IMG/VR virus record: IMGVR_UViG_3300038678_000142
Coordinates: 1 to 49,543 of that record
Strand: one strand, 5' to 3'
DNA from: a virus
Length of the DNA: 49,543 nucleotides
The translations under genes and the position numbers were made by a program. A model generated the notes under the pieces. The model searched no databases, had not been told where the DNA came from, and worked only from the letters and a program-made list of their open reading frames with translations. This document shows, piece after piece, positions 15,400 to 48,936 of this stretch (the stretch's first letter is position 1; each line of letters opens with the position of its first letter).

Positions 15400-17652
15400 A
15401 TGGCGACTCCAATAACAACCAGCGCAGACACAACTCGCACGATCGAGAAAATCAAGGTATGGACAGCCAGTAACCCCAACGGTACGTGGTTGGAGCAACC
15501 ATCCTTGCACTTGAACCGGCTTTCTATGGTTGCCGGGCCGGACATTGACCAGGCAGAATTTGAATTCAAATATGGATTATACGCGGACAATGAAGTTGTT
15601 CAGCCTTTGGATCTCAATCGGCACTATATTCGCGTCGCAATGCGAGATGTCGATTCAGAACCTACCGGAAGTGATATCAGCATTCTCGCCACGGCGTTTC
15701 ACATCTGGTACGGTGTCATCGAAGTTGACGAAAAGGACATTTTCGGGACAAGGGTCTTCGATTTTCGGAACACGCAGACGACTGTCAAAACTGGAAATCA
15801 GAAGATTACCGCGTTCGGCCTGCTGAGAGAACTTGAGAATACGCCAGTCAATCAGTCGATCGTGAAGCAGGCAGCCAGCGCACAAAATCAAGAAATCCCG
15901 CGCGGCATCCCGTTCAACTTTAATGAGAACGGACAATTCCCCGACCGTGGCAATCGGTCTGAAAATGAGGAAGGGGTTGAAGCGACATACGTCTTCAGTT
16001 TTGAGCCGAATGGCGATTTTAAATGGAACGGGGCTGACGCTCTTAACTATACGATCAAGAATGATGTACCGCTCGACAGCCAGGGGAACAAGGCATATCG
16101 ATGGAACTTTACCACAGGCGGCTCACTCGAATGGTTTGACGTGACTGTTAAACGCGACAAGCGATCCGTGAAAGATGTGGTTGATGATATCGTTGATCGA
16201 AGGCGGGCGGTTGGGTATTACGTTCAGGGTGACGAACAGGGGGCTTCATTCGAGTCAATAGTTCGCGTTTTCACATTTCTTGAATCTTCGATACCACTGA
16301 ACGACAACATCACGATCCTGCCTAATCCCCGGCAATTCACGCTCGACTTCGAGAGTAGTTTTGACGTGACCGAGGCATTGCTGGTAAACAGTATCACGCA
16401 TAAAGCCGATGTGATCACGGTGCGGGGCGCGAAGGTCACGTCCACGTTTTCGATTTGGGTTGATCCTACTTTGTTAGAGGGGGGCTGGACTTCAGCCAAT
16501 GAAACGGCATATCTTGAAGGCGCGTTGAATACGGCGGGGTATGCGGCCCTGGAAGAAGATGACCAGAAAGAGGTGAATCAGCGAGCCCGAACTCAAGATT
16601 CACTCGGAGACGTTTTTTCTAAATTCGTGATGGTTGATATATGGGATCTTCAGATTTCGGATTCAAAATCACCAGGAGCAACAAATTATTGGATTGCAGT
16701 TGCTCCTGGTGATTTTCAATCTCTACCGGCCGATCCTGACGACCTTACTGGAGACTTTTCGGTCGATCTAAATCCAGACGGTTCGTTTGTAAATCCACCG
16801 GACAAACTATGGAGCAAGGGTGCGAAATTCGAGAGATTCCTGTCAATCAAAAAAGATTCGGCGGATGAGTTAAGCGAATACAAAGACCCATTGGTCATAT
16901 TTCAAACTGACACGGATGCTGGGGTATGGGAGTTTGGCGAGCAGCTTAACTCAAGATCGGGAATGGAACACGAACAGTCTCGGAAGTTCTCAACTCGATT
17001 AAACATGCTTGATAAAGAACTCGGAATCGAAGTTATTGTCGGGGCGGCGGGGGCGCAACAACTGATCGCATTAGAAAACTGGGCAGGTGCCGAGCCGACG
17101 CCTGCTAATTACGACCCGGAGACAGAGGAAGGGAACGGTGTCGATTATTTCGAGATGATCGCGACAGTCAGCATGAAGTGGGACCGGCATGTTGAAGCAG
17201 TCGTTTTTCCTCGCGGAACACCATTGAACTCGCTGGAGCCGGGAGTTCCAAAACGAGAAACATTCATTGATGTTCCCGATGCCCGACTTGACTACCTGAT
17301 TCCCGGAACCGTTACGGACATTGACGATGCGGGAGCATTGGTCGTAGACACAACCGGCAGCATTCTCCGTGATGATCGCGATCGAATGAAGCGAATAGCC
17401 TCGCTAGCCGAGATATGGTACGGGGTGACGAGACAAGCTCTCACGCTTACGTACAAACAACTCCGCGCTGTCGCAAACGAAGACGGCTCAATAAGGCTTC
17501 GCATCGGTGATTTGATCACGTCAATCGGTGCGCAGTATTCCGAGACTGACGTGAATTCTGTCGTCACCGGAATCACGTTCGACAATGGCGAATCTCCGAC
17601 GACGACAATTCAGCTTTCATACGCACATTTGGACTTTGCAGATGCCATCTGA
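15400..17652 (+). CDS. Large distal tail/baseplate hub protein
   Basis: A 750-aa protein after the tape measure genes, where distal tail and hub proteins are encoded. Early segments (DIDQAEFEFKYGLYADNEVV, HIWYGVIEVDEKDIFGTRVFDF, KITAFGLLRELENT) resemble the beta-barrel start of tail hubs, with long beta-rich arms after them. The C-terminal part (TDVNSVVTGITFDNGESPTTTIQLSYA) resembles the end of hub proteins that bind the tail tip. No enzymatic motif is seen. The stop lies inside the next gene's start. Confidence 0.55.
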   Translation: MATPITTSADTTRTIEKIKVWTASNPNGTWLEQPSLHLNRLSMVAGPDIDQAEFEFKYGLYADNEVVQPLDLNRHYIRVAMRDVDSEPTGSDISILATAFHIWYGVIEVDEKDIFGTRVFDFRNTQTTVKTGNQKITAFGLLRELENTPVNQSIVKQAASAQNQEIPRGIPFNFNENGQFPDRGNRSENEEGVEATYVFSFEPNGDFKWNGADALNYTIKNDVPLDSQGNKAYRWNFTTGGSLEWFDVTVKRDKRSVKDVVDDIVDRRRAVGYYVQGDEQGASFESIVRVFTFLESSIPLNDNITILPNPRQFTLDFESSFDVTEALLVNSITHKADVITVRGAKVTSTFSIWVDPTLLEGGWTSANETAYLEGALNTAGYAALEEDDQKEVNQRARTQDSLGDVFSKFVMVDIWDLQISDSKSPGATNYWIAVAPGDFQSLPADPDDLTGDFSVDLNPDGSFVNPPDKLWSKGAKFERFLSIKKDSADELSEYKDPLVIFQTDTDAGVWEFGEQLNSRSGMEHEQSRKFSTRLNMLDKELGIEVIVGAAGAQQLIALENWAGAEPTPANYDPETEEGNGVDYFEMIATVSMKWDRHVEAVVFPRGTPLNSLEPGVPKRETFIDVPDARLDYLIPGTVTDIDDAGALVVDTTGSILRDDRDRMKRIASLAEIWYGVTRQALTLTYKQLRAVANEDGSIRLRIGDLITSIGAQYSETDVNSVVTGITFDNGESPTTTIQLSYAHLDFADAI

Positions 17653-18055
17653 AATTGAACAACTCAGAGTGCAGGTCGACGAACTTCGTCGGGAGTTGTC
17701 GCGTCAAGTTGCTCGACATGATCGATATCCGATCATCGGAAGTGGTAATTGTCACACGATCAGATTTGAGATTGTGTCATCGGACCCGGATACCCGGACG
17801 GCTCTTGTGCTGATCCAGGCAAGGCCGGTCGGATGCTCTGAAGTCCCTGATTCATCGCTTGAAGGCACGGCTGTCGAGGTATGCGACCCGCAAGGGTGCT
17901 TCTTTAATGAACCGACCGAAGAGATGACGGGGCGTCATGGGTGGGCGGAATACATGAAGCCAACCGTTGAAAATATCTGCCAGTCAGATATCTACGCTCT
18001 CGAAAATCAATGGGAAGTTTTCTCGCTTTGCTGTCCATTATCGGAGTGTACATAA
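17642..18055 (+). CDS. Small tail-tip protein with N-terminal coiled coil
   Basis: A 137-aa protein. ATG 17642 is preferred over the longer 17585 frame because it gives only an 11-nt overlap with the hub gene. Residues 3-25 (SEIEQLRVQVDELRRELSRQ) form a clear coiled coil, probably a trimerisation stem, followed by a beta-rich domain with several cysteines (GSGNCHTIRFEI, CDPQGCF, LCCPLSEC). The stop overlaps the next start (TAATG). Confidence 0.6.
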   Translation: MPSEIEQLRVQVDELRRELSRQVARHDRYPIIGSGNCHTIRFEIVSSDPDTRTALVLIQARPVGCSEVPDSSLEGTAVEVCDPQGCFFNEPTEEMTGRHGWAEYMKPTVENICQSDIYALENQWEVFSLCCPLSECT

Positions 18056-19293
18056 TGGGTGCGAAAGGCGGAAAAGAATGTTGTTGTGATGGTTGCCATG
18101 ACCGGCCGAGCCAGAACCTGGGGACGACAAATCTCCAGCCGATGCAACAGCGATGCTGCGCGTGCATCCCGCGCCAGCTATGCGTTCGCGTCACGTATCC
18201 CGACGACTCTTTCGTGAATACCATCATCGACTGCGGTGGCTGTAATGTTGATGCGAGCGATACCAAAATCTACTGCGGTCAAGTGTTCATCAACGGCGAA
18301 TCGGTTCTGATCGAGATTCATTTCACGATCAACGACGACGGCGATTGCTATATGTGCATCGTGTCCGAACCCCTGGGTATGGATGGCACGATCCCCGGAG
18401 ATTGCCACGGTGCAATTGATGCCACGGAGCGAGCCGCGCCAACGTGCTTCTGCCGCGAGATGGCTGCGGAGTGGCCGATATACACCACCTCGATCGGTGA
18501 TGGAGAACACAGCACTGCAACTTTGAGTACGTTTGCTGCTGATAACCAGAGCCTGAAGCGTGCAATCGATTGTGGTGGATGCAATTGTATTTGCCGATGC
18601 GCGTGCATTACGGTGGCGACTGAGAGCGGTGCGGGTACAGAGCAGACGTGTGTCGAAATCTACAACAATACGGCAGTTTGGATCACAGATGGTGGTGTTG
18701 AAATCCACATGGTTCCGAACGCTGAAACCAACTGTTGCGAGCTTGAGCTGATCAGTGCCGGTGACGGTATATCGCTGGCGTCTTCGCCGCCAAACGTCGA
18801 ACTCGGTGAGGCGGCTTTGAATCCATGCCCCAGCCCGATTGCTCGGTGGGATGCAACCGACACGGAAGGCGGAACCGTCACCGTTATTTGGGAGTGCGTT
18901 GAATGCGGAGAATGTGCCGGAACCGGTGGCGGGGCCGATTGCTGCTCTGGATCGCTCCCGAGAGTGCTGACAGCGTCCGTGGATGGCGGGATCGATTGTG
19001 ATTGTGCAGTTTTCGATCTACCTCTGATTTTCGACGACGTGAACGGATACTGGGAAGGGACCAACGACACTGCATGGTGCGATCACTCTATAACGATCCA
19101 GTTCATTTGTGAGGCTGACGGCCGGTTTACGCTTTCGCTACTTAATGCGGGACCGTGTACCAATACTTCCCAGACATTGTACGGGCAAGATTGCGACCCG
19201 CTATCGGCAGCGTTCAGTTTGTTGGTTGGTGGGATCGGATGTTGCGGGGGCGTTTCCAGCAGTAGAACAATAGGGGTGACGGTGACCGAATGA
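18055..19293 (+). CDS. Cysteine-rich triplicated tail protein
   Basis: A 412-aa protein with about 39 cysteines (near 9.5%). A Cys-cluster leader (KECCCDGCHD) is followed by three divergent units of about 110-140 residues, beginning near QRCCACIPRQLCVRV, CICRCACITVATES and DCCSGSLPRVLTASV, each with cysteine pairs and beta strands. The repeated CGGCN motif closes leader-like subdomains. The density suggests metal ribbons or a disulphide-locked fibre. It is coupled to the gene upstream and overlaps the glycosyltransferase-like gene by 4 nt. No enzyme motif is seen. Confidence 0.6.
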   Translation: MGAKGGKECCCDGCHDRPSQNLGTTNLQPMQQRCCACIPRQLCVRVTYPDDSFVNTIIDCGGCNVDASDTKIYCGQVFINGESVLIEIHFTINDDGDCYMCIVSEPLGMDGTIPGDCHGAIDATERAAPTCFCREMAAEWPIYTTSIGDGEHSTATLSTFAADNQSLKRAIDCGGCNCICRCACITVATESGAGTEQTCVEIYNNTAVWITDGGVEIHMVPNAETNCCELELISAGDGISLASSPPNVELGEAALNPCPSPIARWDATDTEGGTVTVIWECVECGECAGTGGGADCCSGSLPRVLTASVDGGIDCDCAVFDLPLIFDDVNGYWEGTNDTAWCDHSITIQFICEADGRFTLSLLNAGPCTNTSQTLYGQDCDPLSAAFSLLVGGIGCCGGVSSSRTIGVTVTE

Positions 19294-20393
19294 ATGAAAA
19301 TTGCAAATGTGACGGTCCTGGTCTTTGTGCCAGGCATCAAATCAACAAGACGAGCAGGGAGTTCGATCTCTGCAAGGGGGTTGCAAATACGGGCAGTTGC
19401 GGTCTGAATTATTGGGTGGCTTGGGAGAATGGAAAGCTCGGTGCGACGGCACCAGCGGAACCGATTTTGAAACCAAAAGGATTCCGTCAGTCGGCAGACA
19501 CCAATCGCCGTGGTCTGGGGGACACGGTATCTCGTGGAATAGCAGGCGTTTCGGGCGGAAGGATAAAGCCGTGCATCGGATGCAAAGATCGCGAGGCAGT
19601 TTTGAATCACTGGCTGCCGGAAGAGATGCCGCCAATTGAGCCGATGCCTTTTACGGGGCCGATTCGGAGAAACTTTCTTTATCACGTCTATCCTGATACG
19701 GCACACCGGGAAATCTGGCAGCGAAATATCGACAACATTCTGAAGAGAATGGACATGTTTAACGGCCATCGGGCGGTCGGTATCGTCACGGCAAAACACC
19801 TCGACCCGCCCGAGATGGTGATGGACGCCTTCAAGGGCGAGGTTGACGATTTCTACGTCGCTAAAAACGTCAAGAAACTTCGCGAGGTCATCACGTTCGT
19901 CCCATTGCTTGAAAAAGTCGAGAGCATGGACCCGAACGATGTGACATTCTGCGCCCACACCAAGGGCGTCACTCACAACGACGGTGATTGGACCACGGTT
20001 CATCGGTGGGGCGACTTGATGTATCGAACGTGCCTGGACGATTGGCCGGCGGTGGAGAAGATGCTGGAGTCCAAGGCGATGGCCGGATCATTCAAGAGTT
20101 ACGGCCAATTCCGAACGCGGAAAAATCACCGGTGGCATTACAGTGGGACATTTTACTGGTTCAGGAACAAGGATGTTTTCTCACGAAACTGGCGGTACGT
20201 TGATCAGCGTTACTTTGGAAACGAATCGTGGCCGGGACTGATGTTCAAGCCGGAAGAAACCGGGTGTTTGTTTCTCGACCATGTTGGTGATCCTTACAAT
20301 GGGGAATATTGGGAAAATACTGTTCAACCGGAATTTGATAAATGGAGGATTAAAAATGAGCGTTCCAAAAACTTTGTTCCCAGCGGACAATAA
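19290..20393 (+). CDS. Glycosyltransferase-like protein with N-terminal Zn motif
   Basis: A 367-aa protein. The first about 30 residues carry a Cys motif (CKCDGPGLCARHQINK, then LCKG); I recall comparable heads in planctomycete proteins. From about residue 128 (NFLYHVYPDTAHREIWQRNID) a Rossmann-like domain follows, with GIVTAKHLDPPEMV, the probable D/N-rich sugar-nucleotide site TFCAHTKGVTHNDGDW and a C-terminal HYSGTFYWFRNKDVF that matches glycosyltransferase acceptor loops. It leads a cassette with an oxygenase and a methyltransferase. The substrate is unknown; a surface glycan or a virion protein is likely. Confidence 0.5.
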   Translation: MNENCKCDGPGLCARHQINKTSREFDLCKGVANTGSCGLNYWVAWENGKLGATAPAEPILKPKGFRQSADTNRRGLGDTVSRGIAGVSGGRIKPCIGCKDREAVLNHWLPEEMPPIEPMPFTGPIRRNFLYHVYPDTAHREIWQRNIDNILKRMDMFNGHRAVGIVTAKHLDPPEMVMDAFKGEVDDFYVAKNVKKLREVITFVPLLEKVESMDPNDVTFCAHTKGVTHNDGDWTTVHRWGDLMYRTCLDDWPAVEKMLESKAMAGSFKSYGQFRTRKNHRWHYSGTFYWFRNKDVFSRNWRYVDQRYFGNESWPGLMFKPEETGCLFLDHVGDPYNGEYWENTVQPEFDKWRIKNERSKNFVPSGQ

Positions 20394-20553
20394 ATCTAAT
20401 TTCAAATTCTGTACAACGTGCGGGTTTCCGCTCGTAGATGTAATCATTAAAAGCTCACACTGCATGAAAACAGGAAAGAAAAATAATACTGTTCGGAAAA
20501 AATGCTCAAATCCCGTGAAACGTGCATTTTTCAAGCGGCATACTGGCGATTGA
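20356..20553 (+). CDS. 65-aa zinc-ribbon-like protein
   Basis: A 65-aa basic protein overlapping the end of the glycosyltransferase-like gene. GGAGG at 20344-20348 sits 7 nt before the ATG, an excellent ribosome site. FKFCTTCGFPLVD supplies a CxxC knuckle, with SSHC and KKCSN giving two further cysteines for a four-Cys zinc site. The C-terminus is lysine/arginine-rich. Function is unknown; it may bind nucleic acid. Confidence 0.6.
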   Translation: MSVPKTLFPADNKSNFKFCTTCGFPLVDVIIKSSHCMKTGKKNNTVRKKCSNPVKRAFFKRHTGD

Positions 20554-20560
20554 AATTAAA

Positions 20561-21202
20561 ATGAATTTTGAAGCCAAGCTCATAACTCATTCTCTGATAC
20601 CATTCCCGCATTGGGTGATCGACAACGCCTTTGCTCCCGAGTTGGTGCGATCAGCGTACGCGCAGTGGCCTCCAGGGGACTGGCCTCATTGGTACAGCTA
20701 CTCGGACGAGAAGACCACAAAGCTGGCGACTCGCGACGAATACAGGCTCCCTCCGGCCTGTCGTGAACTGATAAATCAAATGTGTGCATTGCCGATATCT
20801 GAGATCACCGGGATTGACGGTTTGTTTCCTGACTTTGATCTGTACGGCGCGGGGATGCACTCGATCCCGTCCGGTGGAAAACTTGGCGTGCATCTCGACG
20901 GCGCGAAACATCCAATCAGCGGATGGAAGCGGCAATTGTCTCTCGTGCTTTTCGTGAACCCGGAATGGGAAACCGAATGGGATGGGTGCCTGGAGTTGTG
21001 GGATAACTCAGGTAAAGAGTGCATTTCAAAGGTCGAGCCGCGATTCAACCGGCTGGCGATCATGGCGGTGGGCGATGATACATATCATGGGATTCCCGGT
21101 GAAGTGCGATGCCCGGCCGGTGAGATGCGGAAGACACTGGCGGTGTTTCACTGGTCGTTCGATGTTGCGGATGAGAATCGAACTAGAGCGGAGTTTGTTT
21201 GA
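20561..21202 (+). CDS. Fe(II)/2-oxoglutarate-dependent oxygenase-like protein
   Basis: A 213-aa protein with the jelly-roll iron motif: H111-L-D113 (GVHLDGAKH), distal H176 (DDTYHGIPG) and R190 (MRKTLAVFHW) for 2-oxoglutarate. Length and spacing fit prolyl-4-hydroxylase-type enzymes. It would hydroxylate a protein side chain or sugar using O2 and 2-oxoglutarate. It sits between a glycosyltransferase-like gene and a methyltransferase and is coupled to the latter (TGATG). The substrate cannot be read from the sequence. Confidence 0.7.
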   Translation: MNFEAKLITHSLIPFPHWVIDNAFAPELVRSAYAQWPPGDWPHWYSYSDEKTTKLATRDEYRLPPACRELINQMCALPISEITGIDGLFPDFDLYGAGMHSIPSGGKLGVHLDGAKHPISGWKRQLSLVLFVNPEWETEWDGCLELWDNSGKECISKVEPRFNRLAIMAVGDDTYHGIPGEVRCPAGEMRKTLAVFHWSFDVADENRTRAEFV

Positions 21203-21921
21203 TGGCAAGTGAATGTAAATGCTGCGGTTCATCATCGACGTTGGAATACAGCAAAGTGTCCGGGGCCACAATCGATGGTGCGAAGTGGTTTCAGTGCCAG
21301 GACTGCAACAGCCTGTCGGCAAATTATTCCTATTCCGATGTCTGCTCTGTTTACGATGAAGAGTATATTTACCATCTGTTGAAGCACGCAAACGACGATC
21401 GCGGATTCCTGCTCTCGCAACTTGGGGAAAACCTCCGGCTGATCTCTGTGGCAAAGCAGTCCGGGAAATTCCTTGATATCGGATGCCTCGACGGATGCGC
21501 GTTGCAGCGAATGCGGGAATCAGGTTTCGACTGCTACGGCTTTGACGTGATCCCTCAGGTAAAGCAGAAGGCGGCGGAATGGTCTGGCGTCCCTGGAGAT
21601 CACATTCTGATTGCCGACGAATATAATTCAACTCTGTTCGATGAAAAATTCGACGTAATTATGTGCCGCGAGGTGATCGAGCATGTCGAAAGACCGATGC
21701 GGCTTTTGGATGAGATCCGGAAGTCGCTGAAGCCGGGAGGGATCGCGCAGATCCAGACTCCACAGATTTCAGCCGATGGCGGAGTATGGGATCAACAGGC
21801 ACACATCCACATCTACTCACCACATCAGTTGAGGCAGTCGATCGAGTTCGTGGGCCTTGCTGTGATAGATTCGCTGTCTATTCAGTGGGACGGTGGTCAG
21901 TGCTGGACCTGCCGGGTGTAA
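21202..21921 (+). CDS. SAM-dependent methyltransferase, sugar-modification type
   Basis: A 239-aa protein. An N-terminal four-Cys zinc ribbon (CKCCGSS and CQDCNSL) precedes a class I SAM fold: motif I FLDIGCLDGCAL, acidic loop GFDVIP and post-I FDVIMCREVIEHVE. This architecture is typical of Methyltransf_23-type enzymes that methylate sugars or small molecules, not DNA. ATG 21202 overlaps the oxygenase stop, so both are made together. It closes the putative glycan-modification cassette. Confidence 0.75.
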   Translation: MASECKCCGSSSTLEYSKVSGATIDGAKWFQCQDCNSLSANYSYSDVCSVYDEEYIYHLLKHANDDRGFLLSQLGENLRLISVAKQSGKFLDIGCLDGCALQRMRESGFDCYGFDVIPQVKQKAAEWSGVPGDHILIADEYNSTLFDEKFDVIMCREVIEHVERPMRLLDEIRKSLKPGGIAQIQTPQISADGGVWDQQAHIHIYSPHQLRQSIEFVGLAVIDSLSIQWDGGQCWTCRV

Positions 21922-22782: not shown

Positions 22783-23094
22783 ATGAATCCGAACTTATAC
22801 GGCTACACCAAAACAGAAATCATCCTTTCATTCGCCTGCACAATGGCAGCGTTCGTCGGGATGGTGGCGGTGGGGCTTTGGAGATCACGAATCAACCATC
22901 TCGAACCGAGGACCGGTCACCGGAAAATGGATTGTACGGAGACGCCCAATCCGCAAGGTAGCGGCGGTGGCCGGTCTGGTGCGGGGAATGTTGAATATCG
23001 TCGGTGTAGTAACAAGAAATGCCAGCGTGCGACCGTTAAGCAGTGTTTTAAGTGCCTGCGATGTTCCAGGTGCTGTAGATGTGAATCATTTTGA
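22783..23094 (+). CDS. Membrane protein with C-terminal Cys-rich ribbon
   Basis: A 103-aa protein. One membrane helix ([22 protein letters not shown]) lies at about 11-32, then a glycine-rich linker, then a Cys-rich tail with seven cysteines (RCSNKKCQR and [13 protein letters not shown]) able to bind one or two zinc ions. CGGAG precedes the ATG. The tail is expected in the cytoplasm next to the csrA gene that follows 11 nt later. Two other frames overlap this region, but only this one has a coherent domain plan. Confidence 0.5.
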
Positions 23095-23105
23095 AAGGAA
23101 TCGAA

Positions 23106-23273
23106 ATGCTTGTGCTTTCGAGGAAAATTGGACAGAGAATTATTATCGGCGATGACATCACGGTCACGATTGTGCGGATCGGACCAGGCACTGTTCGGGT
23201 CGGAATCGATGCGCCGAAGGATGTCAATATCGTTCGGGAAGAAATCTCGGAACAGAATGAGAGGGCGGCGTGA
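23106..23273 (+). CDS. csrA: Carbon storage regulator CsrA
   Basis: A 55-aa CsrA/RsmA protein: a dimeric RNA-binding regulator that blocks or stabilises mRNAs by binding GGA motifs in hairpin loops. The start MLVLSRK and the strand IVREEI carry the RNA-contacting residues L4, R6 and R44. Length is slightly below the usual 60-65 aa. AAGGA sits 7 nt before ATG 23106; an upstream in-frame TTG (23091) has no support. In this phage it leads an early operon. It could redirect host mRNA use or control phage transcripts; both are inferences. Confidence 0.95.
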
Positions 23274-36722: not shown

Positions 36723-36747
36723 CTTACACAGTTGTTTGGAAGCAAAA

Positions 36748-38052
36748 ATGAGTTTAACAGTTGGAAGTCTTTTCGCCGGCATCGGCGGCTTCGATCTCGG
36801 GTTTGAACGGAGCGGAATCGTACCTGTCTGGCAGGTCGAGAAAGACGACAATTGCAACAGGATCTTAGAGAGGCACTGGCCCGACGTGCCGAGGTACAGG
36901 GATGTCACGGAATTCGGAAAATCAACTACCACTGTTCAGCCAGACATCATCTGCGGAGGATTTCCCTGCCAAGACATCTCAGTGGCTGGTTGCCGCGCAG
37001 GATTGGCGGGTGAGCGATCCGGACTCTGGTACGAGTACGCCAGAATCCTTGATGAGTTCCGTCCCAGTTGGGTTTGTATCGAGAACGTCGCTGGCCTTCT
37101 GTCAAGTTGGAGTGCCATCGAACCGGAGGCGATGCAAATACCGTCTGACGCGAGCGAAGGATGGGAAATTGAAGTGGAAGAGAGTAGCGACCTTGAGACG
37201 ATCCTCTTTGAGTTGGAAAAACTCGGGTATCGGTGGCTCTACTCTGTCAGTGACTCTCAGTGGTTCGGAGTTCCCCAGCGACGCCGTCGCGTGTTCATTA
37301 TCGGACATCTTGGAAACAGGACCGGTGGACTCGAAGTATTATTTGAGCCCGAAAGCATGTCGGGGGATTCTCCGCCGAGCCGAGAGGAGAAATCGAGAAT
37401 TGCCAGCACGCTTACATCAGGCGTTAGAGTCAGTGGCAACGCTCCAGGACGACGGAGAGAAGACGACGTGAATATCGTGGCAGCAACTTTAAATAGCGGT
37501 GGCAACTCGGGCGGGTTCAGGACCGAGCCTGGGGAGCATCTGGTAGCCGATACGTTCCGGATATGTGGCTTCGGTGACTACGCTGCCTCTGCCTCTGCCT
37601 CTGCCGTCAAAGCGAGGGACCATAAGGACGCGACGGATCTGATTGCCTACCAGTGCCAGGGTTCCAATGTTGGTCCGATGGGTACGCTTCGGGCGGGGAA
37701 CGGGAATGAGACAGGTGGGGTTCCGTTTGTATGGGCCCTGCATTCTGAGAACTCAAACGCTGGTAAGAACGGAGTGGGCCCCGCAATCGCAGATAGGGCG
37801 AGATGCTTGGATGTGAATGGCGGATATTCAACAAGCCAGGGAGGGAACCTTGTACAGGGGGGCCCGGAAATGTCTGTTCGCCGGCTGACACCACGGGAGT
37901 GCGAGAGGCTTCAGGGTTTTCCCGACGATTGGACGCGATTTGACAGCGAGGGGAAACAACTCAGCGACTCGGCGCGTTACCGGGCCCTGGGGAACGCGGC
38001 AACGGTGAATGTGACGGAATGGATCGGGAGCCGGTTCCCGACGAGCGGGTAA
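36748..38052 (+). CDS. C5-cytosine DNA methyltransferase
   Basis: A 434-aa enzyme that transfers a methyl group from SAM to C5 of cytosine in a specific sequence. Motif I is SLFAGIGGFDLGF, motif IV GGFPCQDIS with catalytic C74, motif VI ENV at 112-114, motif VIII QRRRRVF and motif X GNAATVN near the end. The target-recognition region at about 215-375 is glycine/serine-rich. The enzyme probably protects phage DNA from host restriction. ATG 36748 is used over the 36736 start. A long overlapping frame at 36902-37471 runs inside it. Confidence 0.93.
   Translation: MSLTVGSLFAGIGGFDLGFERSGIVPVWQVEKDDNCNRILERHWPDVPRYRDVTEFGKSTTTVQPDIICGGFPCQDISVAGCRAGLAGERSGLWYEYARILDEFRPSWVCIENVAGLLSSWSAIEPEAMQIPSDASEGWEIEVEESSDLETILFELEKLGYRWLYSVSDSQWFGVPQRRRRVFIIGHLGNRTGGLEVLFEPESMSGDSPPSREEKSRIASTLTSGVRVSGNAPGRRREDDVNIVAATLNSGGNSGGFRTEPGEHLVADTFRICGFGDYAASASASAVKARDHKDATDLIAYQCQGSNVGPMGTLRAGNGNETGGVPFVWALHSENSNAGKNGVGPAIADRARCLDVNGGYSTSQGGNLVQGGPEMSVRRLTPRECERLQGFPDDWTRFDSEGKQLSDSARYRALGNAATVNVTEWIGSRFPTSG
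36902..37471 (+). CDS. Overlapping ORF inside the methyltransferase gene
   Basis: A 189-codon frame (+1 relative to the methyltransferase) with GAGG (36891-36894) 7 nt before its ATG. The translation is serine-rich, then ends in VACSLSDILETGPVDSKYYL followed by SPKACRGILRRAERRNRELP. I recognise that C-terminal pattern (SLSD-x-LE, KY-YLSPKA, GILRRAE-R) from many phage hypothetical proteins. The host frame in the same bases encodes LFEPESMSG, also a familiar phage methyltransferase stretch. So the region may encode two proteins, or one set of database entries may be a shadow. Confidence 0.45.
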   Translation: MSRNSENQLPLFSQTSSAEDFPAKTSQWLVAAQDWRVSDPDSGTSTPESLMSSVPVGFVSRTSLAFCQVGVPSNRRRCKYRLTRAKDGKLKWKRVATLRRSSLSWKNSGIGGSTLSVTLSGSEFPSDAVACSLSDILETGPVDSKYYLSPKACRGILRRAERRNRELPARLHQALESVATLQDDGEKTT

Positions 38053-38358: not shown

Positions 38359-38634
38359 GTGAATATCCATATACACGCACCAAATTCAAGCGTCGGGCGA
38401 ACAATCAGACGCTGCACAACATGCCGGTGTCGGAGGCGATTCCTTATTAAGTTCTTCGCTTGGTATGCGTCTCAATGGACGTGTGGTGGATGCGGTTACG
38501 AGTTTGTCTCCGGCGAAGGCCGGGAATCAACCGGCATGCACCAGAGGGCGAGAAACAAATCGTGGGTTCGGAGTCAATGGGGATCGGCTTCAACCAAGAA
38601 GAATGCGATTGATGCCGTTCTTAAAAATGTGTAA
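38359..38634 (+). CDS. Small zinc-ribbon protein
   Basis: A 91-aa basic protein with a GTG start. CTTCRCRRRF and CGGCGYEF supply a four-Cys ribbon, followed by a basic helix (RESTGMHQRARNKSWVRSQWG). It may bind nucleic acid. GGGAA before the start is a weak ribosome site. It overlaps a longer in-frame version of the next gene, but the next gene's real start is 38672. Confidence 0.5.
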   Translation: MNIHIHAPNSSVGRTIRRCTTCRCRRRFLIKFFAWYASQWTCGGCGYEFVSGEGRESTGMHQRARNKSWVRSQWGSASTKKNAIDAVLKNV

Positions 38635-38671
38635 CAGCGGTAACCAGGAGTCCATTAAACGTGGGAATATT
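38632..38671 (+). repeat. Intergenic start-associated element, copy 9
   Basis: TAACAGCGGTAACCAGGAG, TCCATTAAACGTGGGA and ATATT directly before the adenine methyltransferase ATG. AGCGGTAAC also occurs in the copy before the cytosine methyltransferase. Confidence 0.45.
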
Positions 38672-39544
38672 ATGACTACAGAAATGAAAGTGAAGGCGAT
38701 CGCACCGTGGTTCGGCTCCAAACGCAATCTTGCACCGGATATCATTGCTGAATTGGGTCCGCACCGCGCCTATTGGGAGCCGTTCTGCGGTTCAATTTCC
38801 GTGCTGCTTGCCAAGCCTCGAAGTTCAATGGAAACGGTAAACGATCTCAACGGCGACCTGGTGAACCTTGCACGCAGAATCCAAGACCCCAAAACCGGAC
38901 TGGATCTGTATCGACGTCTTCGGAGAACTTGGATGTGTTCCGACCTGTTCCGGGATTCGGCAGTCATTATTAAAGAGCATCCGTTCCAAGCAACTCCGGA
39001 GAGAGCGTTTCATTATTTTGTCTTTTGCTGGATGGGGCGCAACGGAGATTCGGGGACAACAAAAGTCGGATACCATTTCTGTAGGAGATTTACGAAAAAT
39101 GGTGGCCATGCAGCCACGCGGTTCAAGAATGTCGTCGATTCCATACCCGCTTTCAACGACAGGATGCGAAATATAACAATTCTCAATGATGACGGTTTCG
39201 GTCTTCTGGAAAGGATCGAGGATGCCGATGGCGTCGTTCTGTATCTCGATCCGCCATACATCGAGAAAGGTGCTAAATATGTCCACGATTTTAATCAGGA
39301 TGATCATGCTCGGCTTTCGGAACTGCTTCAGAGATTCAAGAAAACCCGCGTCGTAGTCAGTTACTATGAACACCCTTTGCTCGACAGTCTTTATCCAGGC
39401 TGGACGAAACGACGATTGAAGGCAACAAAAGCGATGGTCAATCAGGGGCGACGTGACAAGGGTGGCGCGGTAGCTGCTCCTGAAGTTCTTCTGATCAACG
39501 GCCCGAGTCTTGTCGAGTCATCCGGCCAAGGAAACCTGTTTTGA
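38672..39544 (+). CDS. N6-adenine DNA methyltransferase (Dam-like)
   Basis: A 290-aa enzyme that methylates adenine N6. FxGxK motif PWFGSKRNL (12-20) binds SAM and the catalytic DPPY is at 193-196 (LYLDPPYIEKGAKY); the region between holds the target-recognition domain. ATG 38672 is used; in-frame starts further upstream run through the neighbouring gene. Together with the cytosine enzyme it would give two layers of protection against host restriction. There is no cognate nuclease nearby, so these are likely orphan phage methylases. Confidence 0.9.
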   Translation: MTTEMKVKAIAPWFGSKRNLAPDIIAELGPHRAYWEPFCGSISVLLAKPRSSMETVNDLNGDLVNLARRIQDPKTGLDLYRRLRRTWMCSDLFRDSAVIIKEHPFQATPERAFHYFVFCWMGRNGDSGTTKVGYHFCRRFTKNGGHAATRFKNVVDSIPAFNDRMRNITILNDDGFGLLERIEDADGVVLYLDPPYIEKGAKYVHDFNQDDHARLSELLQRFKKTRVVVSYYEHPLLDSLYPGWTKRRLKATKAMVNQGRRDKGGAVAAPEVLLINGPSLVESSGQGNLF

Positions 39545-41331: not shown

Positions 41332-41883
41332 ATGATCCATAAATGGCACATCCCCATCTCCGGCTTCACCCAGGGCATCGACCGTGCGAACGGATTCGAC
41401 AAACTCTGGCTGAAACTTCGAGACAAAGCAGGTGAGAATGTCAGCGTGGTCACTCCGCAACGGTGGTCGGCTGACTTCGATTCGTTGGCCGACTTTATCG
41501 ACCGGATGAGTCCGGATGGGAAGACTCCGGAGATCAACATTTACGCCTATTCGTGGGGATGTGGTCGCGGATTTATCCAGCTTTCTGAGGAGCTTGGAAA
41601 GCGGGGGCTGATCGTCCTGAACGCTGTCCTCTGCGATCCGGTTTTCTACTCCCGGTGGCGTCCATGGCGGGCAATGGTCGCGTCACCGGCGATCACGATC
41701 CCGAAGAACGTGAATCAGGTCTACTGGTTCTACCAACGGCAAAACAGGCCCTGCGCGACGGAATTGCGTCCTTTGGCGAGTACGACGGCGATTGCCCCAG
41801 GGGTTGAGCTTCGACGTGAACACGCTTGGATGGACGATGCCCCGCAGTTTCACGAAAAGTGCATGGAGGTCGCGGCTATATGA
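41332..41883 (+). CDS. Alpha/beta hydrolase, possible lysis enzyme
   Basis: A 183-aa alpha/beta hydrolase. The nucleophile elbow is AYS74WGCG, a GxSxG variant with Ala at the first position. D102 (LCDPVFYSRW) and H164 (RREHAWMDDA) complete the triad. It lacks the long lid of most esterases. Location in the lysis region and the small size suggest a cell-envelope lipid or ester target, but no lysis domain is present. Start ATG 41332 has GCGAGG 5 nt upstream; GTG 41326 overlaps the previous stop. Confidence 0.7.
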   Translation: MIHKWHIPISGFTQGIDRANGFDKLWLKLRDKAGENVSVVTPQRWSADFDSLADFIDRMSPDGKTPEINIYAYSWGCGRGFIQLSEELGKRGLIVLNAVLCDPVFYSRWRPWRAMVASPAITIPKNVNQVYWFYQRQNRPCATELRPLASTTAIAPGVELRREHAWMDDAPQFHEKCMEVAAI

Positions 41884-43061
41884 AATGTTCAATTCTATTG
41901 CTACTCCTATTGTTGCCGGCGACCGTGAACGCCACAGAAGGTCCATCAGTCCCGGTCATGTGCCAGGAATGTAGTGCATCTTCATGCCGTACGTTTCGAG
42001 GAAGTGGAACCGTCATCCGATACGATCAACGCTATGCCTATGTCTTGACAAATAAACATGTCATCAAGAAAGATGGAGGTGTTCAATGGAAACAGAACAT
42101 CTTTATTTGGGCATATAGCCGGTATCATTCCGGCACAGTGATTGCCGTGGCGTCTGATTCGGACCTCGCCATCATTAAAGTACCTATTCGTACGGAACTG
42201 AACGTGCAAGTAGTTTCTCAAGTACCTCCACGTAACGGAGATTCAGTGACTTTGTCTTCATTCAAACATGGTTCCCGATTTCACCGAGATAACGGTCAGA
42301 TATATCTTACCCTTCCAGTACAGAATGGATATAAGCACGATCCGCATGCCGCCTACGTCACTATTTCCTCCGAACCGGGACAATCCGGAGGAGGTCTTAC
42401 TGATTACTCGGGTCAATTGATTGGAGTCAATTACGGTACGGAAGCAGAAGTATTTAATGGGATACGATATTCGTTGTCAGTTCGTTACGAACACGTAAAG
42501 AACTTCTTATTGAATTCCGGAATGATATCTCGACCACCTCCCATAAAACCGAAAGCACCTCCGCCTCCAAAGGAAAAGCCCAAATCAAAACTGTCTCCCC
42601 GCGACCCAATTGTGGTGAACCCGCCAAAGGAGAAGTTGTCGATACCTGTTGAGGAACCGAATCCTACGCCACCCCGGAAGCTGGTCGGAATTGCGCAGGT
42701 GGTTGAGAACAAAAGCAAAGAGGCCGGATTCCCTTGGGTCGAACTCGCATGGGCAGCGGTTGGTATTGCCATTCCCGCCGCAGGTTGGGCAAGGTCAGCA
42801 TACAAGGCGGCCAAAGTCGTGAAAGCAGTAAGAGGTGCGGTTCCGCAGGGGACTGACCGGACATTCGTTGTGGATGCACCACCGGTCACATCACCAACAC
42901 GAATCGACACGCAATTCGTGAATGTCGAGAGTGATAATTATCAGAGGGCACATCAGCAGGCCCGCCAGGAGATAGCGCGTCGCTACCCCGGTTCTCAGGA
43001 AATATTGGAGGCGGAGTTGAGTCTGACGGAACAGTTTTTGTCCGGACAACCAGCCAGTTAA
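41880..43061 (+). CDS. Secreted trypsin-like serine protease
   Basis: A 393-aa protein. A signal peptide (MKCSILLLLLLLPATVNA) precedes a trypsin-fold domain with H60 (TNKHV), D95 (SDLAIIKV) and S169 (EPGQSGGGL). After about residue 210 a proline-rich linker (PPPIKPKAPPPPKEKPK) leads to a helical region with a hydrophobic stretch (VELAWAAVGIAIPAAGWA) and a C-terminal helix. The protease would act in the periplasm or at the surface. Such an enzyme is unusual in phages; degrading receptor, envelope or lysis-inhibitor proteins is possible. Confidence 0.8.
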   Translation: MKCSILLLLLLLPATVNATEGPSVPVMCQECSASSCRTFRGSGTVIRYDQRYAYVLTNKHVIKKDGGVQWKQNIFIWAYSRYHSGTVIAVASDSDLAIIKVPIRTELNVQVVSQVPPRNGDSVTLSSFKHGSRFHRDNGQIYLTLPVQNGYKHDPHAAYVTISSEPGQSGGGLTDYSGQLIGVNYGTEAEVFNGIRYSLSVRYEHVKNFLLNSGMISRPPPIKPKAPPPPKEKPKSKLSPRDPIVVNPPKEKLSIPVEEPNPTPPRKLVGIAQVVENKSKEAGFPWVELAWAAVGIAIPAAGWARSAYKAAKVVKAVRGAVPQGTDRTFVVDAPPVTSPTRIDTQFVNVESDNYQRAHQQARQEIARRYPGSQEILEAELSLTEQFLSGQPAS

Positions 43062-44390: not shown

Positions 44391-45016
44391 TGGCAACATT
44401 CACGCCGAATAAATCAAATAGTGTTGTGGTCCTTGCTCACCAAGCCGTGACCCACCCTGTGACGATTGTCGGGTCGTCCATCGCCGCACTCACCAAAAAG
44501 GCCGTGACGATTTTCATGTTTCACGGATTTGCAGAAGCAGGGGCTAACACTAACCCCGGCAAATTCAAAGTGCAGATTCGACCTGACGCTGGTGATGGAT
44601 CTGTAAACGAACATTGGGTCACGATTGCCACATTCGTGACCAGTTCTAATACGACTGTCAGTGAGGCGTTCACGGCCACGGAAGCGGCGGGCGTTAAGGT
44701 TTGTGCTGTCTCCTCAACGACTGGTTTCGCTGCGGAGGATAAGGTCTACATTCGCCACACCACATTAGCGAGCAGTGAATGGGCAGAGATTCAAGAAATC
44801 GTAACGAACACGTCCATTGATATTCTCGACGGTCTGACAGCGGAGCAAACAGCAGCCGCCAGCACGTTTTTCAGTGACGCCACCAATTTTATCTGTTCTC
44901 TGAATCTGAACGCAAACGAGTCTTATCGTGTCATCTGGTCTCACGAAGGCGCGACGGGAATGAACGGTCACGTCAAGGCATTGGCGATAACCCACGATTC
45001 GGACGGTTCCGCATGA
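44390..45016 (+). CDS. Virion protein, beta-sandwich type
   Basis: A 208-aa protein with repeated V/T-rich strands (SNSVVVLAHQAVTHPVTIVGSS, WVTIATFVTSSNTTVSEAFTA). It resembles a fibre-associated beta-sandwich. Overlaps the next gene by 4 nt. Confidence 0.55.
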   Translation: MATFTPNKSNSVVVLAHQAVTHPVTIVGSSIAALTKKAVTIFMFHGFAEAGANTNPGKFKVQIRPDAGDGSVNEHWVTIATFVTSSNTTVSEAFTATEAAGVKVCAVSSTTGFAAEDKVYIRHTTLASSEWAEIQEIVTNTSIDILDGLTAEQTAAASTFFSDATNFICSLNLNANESYRVIWSHEGATGMNGHVKALAITHDSDGSA

Positions 45017-45837
45017 GTTTTGTTTATGACGGACAAATTGACTGGGTTGATCCTGTCAACCGGCTCCACTGGCTCAACCGTGACCTTGAGGCGTGGTATC
45101 TGGCATTGCCGGGAATGGGTGGATCTAGCTGGCAAGACCTCACGAAAGCACATGATGCTGAATTTGTGAATGGGCCGTTATTTGTCAACACGCAGGACAG
45201 GCTCGGTGGATTTGGATCTGTTGAGTTCGATGGAGATGACGACCGTGCGGACACTGGAACAATAGCTGCTGTAATGATTGGTGCTGAACTGTCGCCGTTC
45301 ACAATTTGTATGCAAGTGTATTTCAGAACTATTACGAGCAACGACAGGATATTTGGTAGCGATGGCGTATCGCCGGGACGTTTTTATATCTCCACGCAAG
45401 CTGCGAGTGTGTTTTGGGGGCTTGGTTCCAAGTTTGGAAATCTTAGTTCCAATGCAGTTGTAACAGGTGTTTGGACGCATTTAGTGTGGACGTTTAGCGG
45501 TACGATTATTAAGTTTTATCTTGATGGTATCCAGACTGAAACATACGACTTTAGTGGAGACTCACTGACATGGGGCAGTGATACAATCCTCATCGGTGAT
45601 ATCCCCGGTGCTTCGTCGCAGCCGATGGACGGATATCTCGATGACATCCGGATTCTTAGGCGGGCCATATCGCCAGAAGAGGTAATTGAAGTTTGTAATG
45701 AATCAAGTCTTGGGCATCCCGGCACATTAAACCGGATCGAATCGATCAGCTATGCGGAGCCGGAAGCAGGTGGGACGCCGACTTCTCGCAGACTCCCGAG
45801 GGGTGAACTCCGTGGCATATTAAGAGGCGTAGTTTAG
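45013..45837 (+). CDS. LamG/concanavalin-like fibre protein
   Basis: A 274-aa protein. From about residue 55 (PLFVNTQDRLGGFGSVEFDGDDDR) to about 225 it follows the LamG/concanavalin-type jelly roll: GVWTHLVWTFSGTIIKFYLDG and YLDDIRILRRAISPEEV are the signature strands. These domains bind glycans or receptors. A short basic tail ends the protein. The next ATG follows the TAG directly, so the two are co-translated. Confidence 0.75.
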   Translation: MSFVYDGQIDWVDPVNRLHWLNRDLEAWYLALPGMGGSSWQDLTKAHDAEFVNGPLFVNTQDRLGGFGSVEFDGDDDRADTGTIAAVMIGAELSPFTICMQVYFRTITSNDRIFGSDGVSPGRFYISTQAASVFWGLGSKFGNLSSNAVVTGVWTHLVWTFSGTIIKFYLDGIQTETYDFSGDSLTWGSDTILIGDIPGASSQPMDGYLDDIRILRRAISPEEVIEVCNESSLGHPGTLNRIESISYAEPEAGGTPTSRRLPRGELRGILRGVV

Positions 45838-48800
45838 ATGTTGAGAAAATATGGTGTAGACCAATACTTCACGTTTCCGCTGATTTCGGCCAGCGCGCAG
45901 GACTTTGATACGGGTCCGACGCTCGCTGCCGGGGACGCCAAGGTCTGGACCGACAATCAGATATTCACAAATTTATCTGCCGAGGCCGTCGCGTTCACTT
46001 TAGGCTCTGAGAAACCGACGCTGGGAGACACTATTGACGGTGCCACCAGTGCCGCCAGCGGGACATTCATGTTTGCGGTTGTTTCGTCGGGGACATTTGG
46101 CGGCGGTGACGCGGCTGGCACGCTGTTCCTTAAATCGGTGAGCGGTACATTCCAGTCCGAGAACCTCGATATCAATGGCGGCACGGCCAACGTGATGACG
46201 ATTGGGGCCGACACAACTGCCGGTTTGATTGGCGAGGTGAGCAACGGAATGTTCTGTTGTGCGTTGACGGCAGCGGAAATGCAATGCACGCAAGCCGAAA
46301 TACACATTATCGATTCCGCTACAAAAGAGTGGGAGGACCAGGGGATAAAGATTGAAACGATCGGTCATGCGTCCGCGATGCACCCGCAGTTTGATGCAAA
46401 CGTCACACAGATTTCAGGAGATGCGACCGCAGCCGACAACCTGGAACTTCAGTACGACGGAACCGGATTGACTGGCGACACGTTCCCGGCTCCGCAGTCG
46501 CAGGTGGGATCAATCGGCTCCGCAGGTGGTGGTGGTCGTAACTTTGCAGCCGATCACGACAACACTACCCGCGACACGATCGACAACGCGGCTGCTGTAG
46601 ACAAAGGGGGCGGACTTGTTGGAATCCCCGTCACGGGCCATGCGTTCTTTGCTGGTAATGAAATCACAATTGCTGGATCAACAAACTACAATGGTGCTGA
46701 AGACATCGTTAGCCAGACGACTAACGAAATCGTAATTACGGCACCGTTCGTGTCGGAAACATTCGCTGGCACAGAGACGATTGTTTCGTCGATCAAAGGC
46801 ATCATTTTTGTCGGTACGCTCTCTAGTGGTACGTTTGCTGACACGGAATCAGATGACGGGGTGTATCAAGTAATCGCACACGACAGCAATGCCTTCGACA
46901 TCGTGTATCGAATTCCCATCGGTGCCGCCCGGCTGGGGACCGACATATTTATTCTAGGATACCTCAATAGCGGGAACGATCAATCCAATGTTCAAGTGTA
47001 CGATTTCATCGGGTCCGTGTGGAAAACCGTAAAGATATGGGAAGGGCAGAACGGTGCCGCAGACACTCCTATTGATGCTAAAATTCTGGATAAGCACACT
47101 GGTACGGGTGCAGATTTAGGAATTTGCCTGTTGAGAATTGTGACAACAGGACAGACGGCACCAACCCTGAATGTCGAGCAATTGCTGATCGAGGCGGTTT
47201 CCAGCGATATATCCGTGGGGTACGTTCGCGATGCTGCTGTCAGCTATGATACCGATCCTGCACGAGGTGAAGCGGGGGTCGATCCTGAACGAAATGGAAC
47301 CGCAGACAACCCGAGCGACAATGAGGCCGACACAACTACGCTGACCGTGTCTAAGAAACTACCAGGGATACACATAGCGTCGGGATCTGTATTCACGTTC
47401 GACCAGAACTATTCCAAATACACTTTTAGCGGGGGTGGTGGGCAGGTTGCCCTTGCTGGTTTTGAAATCAGCAGGTGTCGATTCTTTAATCTATCGATAT
47501 CCGGTGTATCAACTGGATCGGTCAGGACTGTTTTCACATCATGTGCATTCTTCTCAGCTACCACAGTGGAACTTGGCACCTGGATCGGTTGCGCAATTGC
47601 AAATACCATTACGCTGTCTGGGGCGAACACGTACAGATTCAGGCAGTGTGATTTCACCGATTCCGGAGAACTAGATTTCGGGGCCGTGGGAGCGCAGACG
47701 ATTTACGTTGACCATCACTCAGGTCATATGTTGGTGCAAAATTTAGCAGCCGGGGACGCTATATTCATTCACGGCACAGGGAATGTTACCCTCAATGCCA
47801 ACTGCACGGGTGGGACTGTAGATCACTCATCAGATGTTGTGGTTACCGACAATTCGGGGAATGTTAGCTTGTCGGTCGATCCAACGTCCGCTAACGCCAT
47901 CCAACTTGACGGCAGCACCCAATCGCTGACGGACCTGAAAGACTTTGCCGACGATGGTTATGATCCGGCAACGAACAAGGTGCAAGGGGTTGTTCTTGTC
48001 GATACCACCACGGTAAACACCGATCAGCGTGGGACGGACTCAGCACTGACAGATAAGGACGGATTCACATTATCAGTCGCCGGGATCTTGGCTGTTTGGC
48101 ATCAGGCTCTCGCCCAAATCGTGACGGCCGGAAGTGTCGGAAAACTTCTCAAGGATGAAATCACATCAGTGCGGATGGCAACACTCACGGACTGGATCAA
48201 CGGTGGGCGACTGGATCTTCTGCTCGATGCGATCCCGACCGTTACAGAGTTTGAAGCACGGACGATTCTTGCAGCGGCGTACTTTGATCCAGCAGTAGAT
48301 CAAGTCTCCGCCGATATCACGGCCATCGCGGGCAACACGCCTCTTGCAACCAGCCTCAAAGAATTCATCGACGCGAATGTCATCGAGTCCGATACGGCAC
48401 AGGGGGGAACATCCACGACGATAACTCTTGCTGCTGGCTCCAACGGGACTGATGATTATTACAAAGACTACGGGGTCTATATCAACGGCGGAACCGGCGT
48501 AGGGCAGTTTGCGAGGATCAACAGCTACAATGGAACAAGCAAAATTGCCACGATTGCCACGCCGGTAAACGGCTGGGCTGTTACGCCGGATGTTACTTCG
48601 ACCTACATTTTATTATCGTCTGGCGTGGAGACTCATGTCAGCGAGATTCATTCAGGAGCAATCTCCGCTGCTAGTTTCTCCGCCGATGCGATTGATGCGG
48701 CTGCGGTGGCGGCTGACGCTTCTCAGGAAATCGCGGATGAAGTCCTGAAACGCGCAGTCTCGAACGTCGAGGACACGGCAGACAGGCACTCCCTGGCCGC

Positions 48801-48936
48801 TGGTGTCATGGTTATGACGAACAGCAGCATTTTCGGGACGACACTGACCGCAAAGAAACCAAGCAACGACAATGTATTCCAAACATACACCGTAGTGGTC
48901 GATGCCGCTGCTGATCCAATCACGGGGGTAAGCTAA
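45838..48936 (+). CDS. Long tail fibre / receptor-binding protein
   Basis: A 1032-aa protein, the largest in the window. It is a string of short V/T/G-rich strands; around residues 500-640 a beta-helix-like segment is visible (YTFSGGGGQVALAGFEISRC, TVELGTWIGCAIANTITLSG, QTIYVDHHSGHMLVQNLAAG), as in fibres and pectate-lyase-like spikes. An alternating Ala/Asp helix occurs near 955-985. No catalytic residues are clear. The stop overlaps the next start (TAATG). Confidence 0.75.
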   Translation: MLRKYGVDQYFTFPLISASAQDFDTGPTLAAGDAKVWTDNQIFTNLSAEAVAFTLGSEKPTLGDTIDGATSAASGTFMFAVVSSGTFGGGDAAGTLFLKSVSGTFQSENLDINGGTANVMTIGADTTAGLIGEVSNGMFCCALTAAEMQCTQAEIHIIDSATKEWEDQGIKIETIGHASAMHPQFDANVTQISGDATAADNLELQYDGTGLTGDTFPAPQSQVGSIGSAGGGGRNFAADHDNTTRDTIDNAAAVDKGGGLVGIPVTGHAFFAGNEITIAGSTNYNGAEDIVSQTTNEIVITAPFVSETFAGTETIVSSIKGIIFVGTLSSGTFADTESDDGVYQVIAHDSNAFDIVYRIPIGAARLGTDIFILGYLNSGNDQSNVQVYDFIGSVWKTVKIWEGQNGAADTPIDAKILDKHTGTGADLGICLLRIVTTGQTAPTLNVEQLLIEAVSSDISVGYVRDAAVSYDTDPARGEAGVDPERNGTADNPSDNEADTTTLTVSKKLPGIHIASGSVFTFDQNYSKYTFSGGGGQVALAGFEISRCRFFNLSISGVSTGSVRTVFTSCAFFSATTVELGTWIGCAIANTITLSGANTYRFRQCDFTDSGELDFGAVGAQTIYVDHHSGHMLVQNLAAGDAIFIHGTGNVTLNANCTGGTVDHSSDVVVTDNSGNVSLSVDPTSANAIQLDGSTQSLTDLKDFADDGYDPATNKVQGVVLVDTTTVNTDQRGTDSALTDKDGFTLSVAGILAVWHQALAQIVTAGSVGKLLKDEITSVRMATLTDWINGGRLDLLLDAIPTVTEFEARTILAAAYFDPAVDQVSADITAIAGNTPLATSLKEFIDANVIESDTAQGGTSTTITLAAGSNGTDDYYKDYGVYINGGTGVGQFARINSYNGTSKIATIATPVNGWAVTPDVTSTYILLSSGVETHVSEIHSGAISAASFSADAIDAAAVAADASQEIADEVLKRAVSNVEDTADRHSLAAGVMVMTNSSIFGTTLTAKKPSNDNVFQTYTVVVDAAADPITGVS

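Follow-up and report, generated by a model that had tools for sequence, protein, structure and literature searches.

The nearest described case is that of the cluster F1 mycobacteriophages (Che8, Rita), in which glycosyltransferases encoded by the phage are believed to act on its own virion proteins (PMC11256854, citing Freeman et al. 2023). The major capsid protein is reported there as the target, and in the F1 phage described the genes are located close to the 3′ end of the genome (PMC11256854). The locus analysed here is similar in that a putative phage-encoded glycosyltransferase would act on one of the phage's own virion proteins. Unlike the F1 genes, the enzyme has a cysteine-rich neighbour in a tail position and carries a Cys module to which, across relatives, different catalytic domains are joined. 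The gtrABC serotype-conversion cassettes of temperate phages, which are defined by the membrane flippase GtrA and the polyprenyl transferase GtrB, share with this locus a phage-borne sugar transfer that could alter phage–host recognition. A gtr-type cassette was rejected as GtrA (PF04138) was absent from 13 records, comprising the window and 12 records of phages with the module, in a search for which the controls were positive in seven genomes. The open-access literature yielded no description of the Cys-rich/transferase arrangement, in line with the sequence-only reading, to which no phage tail module of this combination was known. Our preferred reading, held tentatively and at a little under an even chance, is that of a tail-tip glycosylation module: the transferase would glycosylate the Cys-rich tail protein, and an oxygenase and a methyltransferase would finish the added group.

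The window, meaning the whole stretch of DNA analysed, is a complete IMG/VR record (IMGVR_UViG_3300038678_000142) of 49,543 bases from a tailed phage. It encodes a GpA terminase, a lambda-type portal, a ClpP-like protease, a Mu gpT-like capsid protein and a tape measure, and the block 17585-21921 is placed after its tail genes. The first gene of the block encodes a 156-aa tail-tip-like protein (17585..18055) with no match in Pfam, PHROG or NCBIfam; it shares 58% identity with the C-terminus of a 289-aa protein at the same place in L015/L042, and its C-terminal part is retained ahead of the Cys-rich gene in relatives. Directly downstream are the genes for the Cys-rich protein (18055..19293), the putative transferase (19290..20393), a 65-aa protein with four cysteines (20356..20553), an Fe(II)/2-oxoglutarate oxygenase (20561..21202) and a SAM methyltransferase (21202..21921, with an alternative TTG start at 21199). 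The coordinates and gene order that the sequence-only reading gave for the cassette at 18055-21921 were right, and all genes of the block are on the plus strand, those of the cassette in tight spacing. The ATG of the Cys-rich gene at 18055 overlaps the upstream stop (TAATG), and its own stop overlaps the transferase start at 19290 as ATGA; these overlaps indicate that the Cys-rich and transferase genes are coupled, which is a point for tail glycosylation. When collections of phages, plasmids, viruses and genomes were searched with single proteins, the enzyme included, no close relatives emerged, the sole return being one distant terminase. The same gene order, which had been suggested as something to look for in other phages, was met again in dozens of other contigs, so that the arrangement is more than chance.

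The 367-aa enzyme had been called glycosyltransferase-like, and structure prediction agrees. In an AlphaFold2 model with a mean pLDDT of 92.6, residues 117-353 (19638..20348) form a Rossmann-like GT-A fold by Foldseek and VIA-align, matching ArnC, LH3, glucuronyltransferases (GlcAT), hyaluronan synthase and others with Z about 10-11 and rmsd mostly 3.3-5 Å. Some nucleotidyltransferases score equally and the fold is therefore no proof of sugar transfer; the protein is probably a GT-A glycosyltransferase. Relatives came from a search for a degenerate form of the HYSGT(F/Y)xWxR motif, which returned 19 viral stretches; an enzyme homologue was confirmed in all of these except L003 (18/19), and an alignment of 15 sequences was then extended to 47. 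At the position of the GT-A DxD motif, after the fourth strand, the strand formed by residues 217-223 ends instead in HxK (H223, K225), as in 46 of the 47 family members. This counts against tail glycosylation, although GT-A families that lack DxD exist and HxK does not therefore exclude GT-A membership. The domain also has the HYSGTF motif, and residues N193, E199, W240, G266, S285, G286 and E312 are invariant; E312 might act as the base if the enzyme is of the inverting kind.

The family is without a useful match in Pfam, PHROG or NCBIfam. Pfam has no match to the catalytic domain among the 47 members, NCBIfam matched only the fused GT2 part of L119 in the three phage copies scanned, and of the PHROGs, 32048 is matched by two members and 13558 by one, neither having an assigned function. 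Membership of RgpF (PF05045, Rhamnan synthesis protein F) was considered for the HxK and SGTFxW motifs; HxK and SG(T/S)xFW align in register with RgpF in a single profile comparison. The assignment is not supported, as hhalign against one RgpF sequence was not significant (probability 6%, E 0.006) and the Pfam RgpF model matched none of the 47 members. The HYSGTF domain also occurs in bacterial chromosomes, mostly of Burkholderiales, within proteins of about 1000-1360 aa that appear to be an unnamed cellular family (L024, L025, L027, L029, L030, L033-L035); in the two of these scanned it is fused to Glyco_trans_1_2. The chromosomal proteins were rejected as the same system because they have no Cys-rich neighbour and the catalytic part alone aligns.

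Support for the accessory genes is uneven. The 65-aa protein does have four cysteines, but the small zinc ribbon proposed for it is a possible assignment only, the matches being weak (Pfam DZR E 0.003, below the cut-off), and phmmer found no match to it in related loci. The two enzymes named in the sequence-only reading are both borne out. The 213-aa oxygenase matches 2OG-FeII_Oxy_3 (PF13640, E 4e-12; 47.5 bits, cut-off 27) and has an intact HxD...H...R set (H111, D113, H176, R190) that is invariant in 30 aligned homologues; its closest solved chains are a putative hydroxylase and prolyl hydroxylases. The methyltransferase matches Methyltransf_23 (PF13489, E 1e-22, 80.6 bits against a cut-off of 27), bears an N-terminal CxxC...CxxC ribbon and has the sugar methyltransferase TcaB9 among its distant solved relatives. 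Among the 30 module loci that had 1.5 kb or more of sequence downstream, the oxygenase was found in 18, the methyltransferase in 22, both in 15, a radical SAM/SPASM enzyme in 2 and none of the four accessory types searched in 5, counts that are approximate because each profile was built from one seed. The oxygenase and methyltransferase are thus recurrent options and not a fixed set. Relatives that keep the Cys-rich gene also keep the transferase or replace it on a shared N-terminal module, so that the expected retention of the cassette holds for this gene and in part breaks down for the others; a fixed five-gene cassette was rejected, and as a unit it is not general. Radical SAM/SPASM-type genes were seen just downstream of the transferase in L022 and L044 (Pfam) and in L042 (profile built here).

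The coupling of Cys-rich protein and transferase, first proposed from the one locus, was upheld. In the collection from the motif search, a Cys-rich gene adjoins the enzyme in 37 non-redundant loci, mostly with 19-61 cysteines (4-11% Cys); one of these, L047, whose 39-Cys protein is one gene farther upstream, was included by hand, and L041 is borderline. A narrow profile (A5) recovered only L042 and L043 again, and an unbiased test was therefore run through a neighbouring tail protein, A6, a conserved 280-aa protein upstream in some module phages whose loci were gathered with no selection for the enzyme. Among the 34 non-redundant A6 loci with enough downstream sequence, 19 had both genes, 3 the Cys-rich gene only, none the enzyme only and 12 neither (Fisher p 8e-7, a guide only, as the threshold of 18 cysteines for a heavily Cys-rich protein was set after the data were seen and related phages are not independent). 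One of the three exceptions, L136, is not a real case and reflects a miscounted, over-extended GT2 reading frame; in the two real ones, L121 and L147, a different enzyme takes the place of the transferase, the next gene having the N-terminal module fused to a phosphoribosyltransferase. On the enzyme tree the Cys-rich-linked copies cluster, with 3 changes against 15.8 in shuffles.

One explanation for these data other than tail glycosylation is that the enzymes remodel the host surface glycan after infection, blocking superinfection or releasing progeny from receptors, and that the Cys-rich gene adjoins them since host-recognition and receptor-masking genes are co-inherited. Surface-polysaccharide loci commonly contain glycosyltransferase, 2OG, methyltransferase and radical-SAM genes, types that are found in the window or in relatives, and the Burkholderiales chromosomes carry the enzyme domain apart from any Cys-rich gene. 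However, the cassette has neither a membrane flippase nor a polyprenyl transferase, consistent with the lack of GtrA noted above, and a near-obligatory pairing with a tail protein together with translational overlap is more than would be expected of cargo; we consider this explanation unlikely. A cluster of sugar enzymes next to a tail gene can also be a cargo hot-spot, a tail-adjacent site that gathers glycan genes functionally unlinked to the Cys-rich protein. The variable downstream genes, and the module loci in which all four accessory types are missing, would fit such a site; the near one-to-one association of the Cys-rich gene with the transferase, or with a substitute that shares its module, in a collection gathered independently of the enzyme does not, and neither does the clustering of linked copies on the tree, and we regard a hot-spot as improbable.

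The A6 pairing and the absence of GtrA were counted in favour of tail glycosylation, as were the domain swaps at the enzyme position. Proteins at this position have in common an N-terminal Cys module (19290..19598 in the window) with the pattern CxC...GxCxR...C, then GxxLxxxI...CxxCxxxxxxLN, which is retained in relatives with swapped catalytic domains. Through their first ~180 residues L119 and L122 share 84% identity; thereafter they are unrelated, the C-terminal part being this transferase plus GT2 in L119 and a phosphoribosyltransferase (PF00156) in L122; L122 also shares 75% identity over 134 residues with the glycosyltransferase of L054. The second half of the module precedes GT2 domains in L136 and L177 (37-55% identity), and the Mannosyl_trans3+FkbM protein at the enzyme position in L152 has weak similarity to it (36-41% over 29-42 residues), so that a mannosyltransferase domain is probably fused to the module there. 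The phosphoribosyltransferase is no obvious glycan enzyme and counts against tail glycosylation. For a constant module with exchangeable catalytic domains, next to one kind of tail protein, the best reading is that it would serve in docking or targeting. The least probable of the readings, that the module mounts the enzyme on the virion and the enzyme acts on the host during adsorption or once inside, would make the swapped C-termini (GT, GT2, phosphoribosyltransferase or mannosyltransferase, on a constant N-terminus directly behind a tail protein) alternative payloads, but the module is missing from the oxygenase and methyltransferase, which look like pathway enzymes, and there is no delivery signal.

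The proposed acceptor, the 412-aa Cys-rich protein read from ATG 18055, has the 39 cysteines first counted, a content of 9.5%, whereas the other proteins of the window that were checked have 0-5%. That it is triplicated is suggested by the model, which has three beta domains, but is not shown at the sequence level, the three being weakly alike by profile (E 0.003, 0.26, 0.5); a repeated domain is clear by eye in relatives such as L063. Homologues of the protein were found in L042, L022, L043, L023, L057 and L026, and none among solved structures by sequence. The model is of moderate confidence (pLDDT 69) and a fold search gave no clear match, the best (Z 7) being a common beta-barrel arrangement, both of which count against tail glycosylation; an uncharacterised phage model, A0A6J5NZC7, matches it with E 6e-7. 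In relatives the Cys-rich gene comes after the tape-measure and distal-tail genes, and this context, counted in favour, suggests that the product is probably a distal tail or receptor-binding protein.

The Cys-rich proteins of L147 (10247-12181) and L156 (10216-11439) have an FGE-sulfatase domain (PF03781) as a mid-sequence insert, with E 4e-33 and 1e-33 respectively, and that of the window lacks it. This domain has the C-type-lectin fold, which is used by some phage receptor-binding proteins. The inserts, also counted in favour, fit a receptor-binding role for the Cys-rich protein and liken the family to phage variable proteins of the FGE-sulfatase/C-type-lectin fold, a likeness that the window protein does not extend to. 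The proteins of L147 and L156 do look variable-protein-like; no reverse transcriptase (PF00078) was found in the window and six records, the L147 and L156 contigs being fragments. Other variants were also observed. L026 (8140-13207), from a Planctomycetota metagenome-assembled genome (MAG), has two copies of the Cys-rich gene, one on either side of the transferase, and after them a very large open frame, and L198, from the same genome, encodes a short Cys-rich protein, a stand-alone protein resembling the Cys module and the start of a large repetitive protein. In L046, L049, L136 and L152, the Cys-rich or neighbouring tail protein has long Ser-Gly repeats.

The hosts of the module phages are probably Planctomycetota, and judged from the sequences of its nearest relatives the same is probably true of the window. 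The Cys-rich/transferase pair is present in Planctomycetota MAG contigs L022 and L026, and a single further instance comes from a MAG with the label Elusimicrobia (L023); between L022 and the window, the enzyme is 50% and the Cys-rich protein 32% identical. Tail protein A6 was found in 9 of 392 Planctomycetota genomes and in none of 398 from Pseudomonadota, the phylum of Ramlibacter. The transferase itself occurs in only 4 of the 392 Planctomycetota genomes, a rarity to be expected of mobile DNA.

Elsewhere in the window, the right end carries a Laminin_G_3 (concanavalin-like lectin) protein (45013-45837) followed by a 1032-aa protein with no family match (45838-48936). This pair is an alternative candidate for the fibre or host-binding unit, and the presence of another candidate host-binding gene, the Laminin_G_3 gene, counts against tail glycosylation. 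Soon after the cassette lie a 103-aa protein (22783-23094) with an apparent membrane segment, a Gly/Ser linker, a Cys-rich tail (10 Cys) and no family match, and a phage-encoded CsrA (23091-23273; PF02599 E 1e-22) that may possibly control host translation; a CsrA-like gene was seen by eye downstream of the module in L051 (13895-14086). The window also encodes C5-cytosine and N6-adenine DNA methyltransferases (36736-38052 and 38465-39544) and a trypsin-like protease (41826-43061).

To return to tail glycosylation, we propose that the Cys-rich protein may be a distal tail adhesin or receptor-binding protein, that the N-terminal module would dock the GT-A enzyme on it or keep the enzyme near, and that the enzyme would then add a sugar to the tail protein. 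The oxygenase and methyltransferase may trim or cap this sugar, or modify the Cys-rich protein as well. With tail protein and dock constant across relatives and catalytic domain and downstream enzymes exchanged, the chemistry of the tip would vary. A more specific and more doubtful proposal is that this is an undescribed modular system of Planctomycetota phages in which a conserved Cys dock brings sugar-transfer domains of interchangeable kinds to a receptor-binding tail protein rich in disulfides, and the phage diversifies its own tip chemically through exchange of enzymes and not through mutation of the adhesin. If tail glycosylation is right, the locus would represent tail-borne glycosylation among the phages of a phylum in which very little phage work has been done, and would add an enzyme family absent from the descriptions of Pfam, PHROGs and NCBIfam. 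The module may also be a marker for Planctomycetota phages in metagenomes, and a fixed dock with an exchangeable enzyme would open the question of phages chemically modifying their own receptor-binding proteins.
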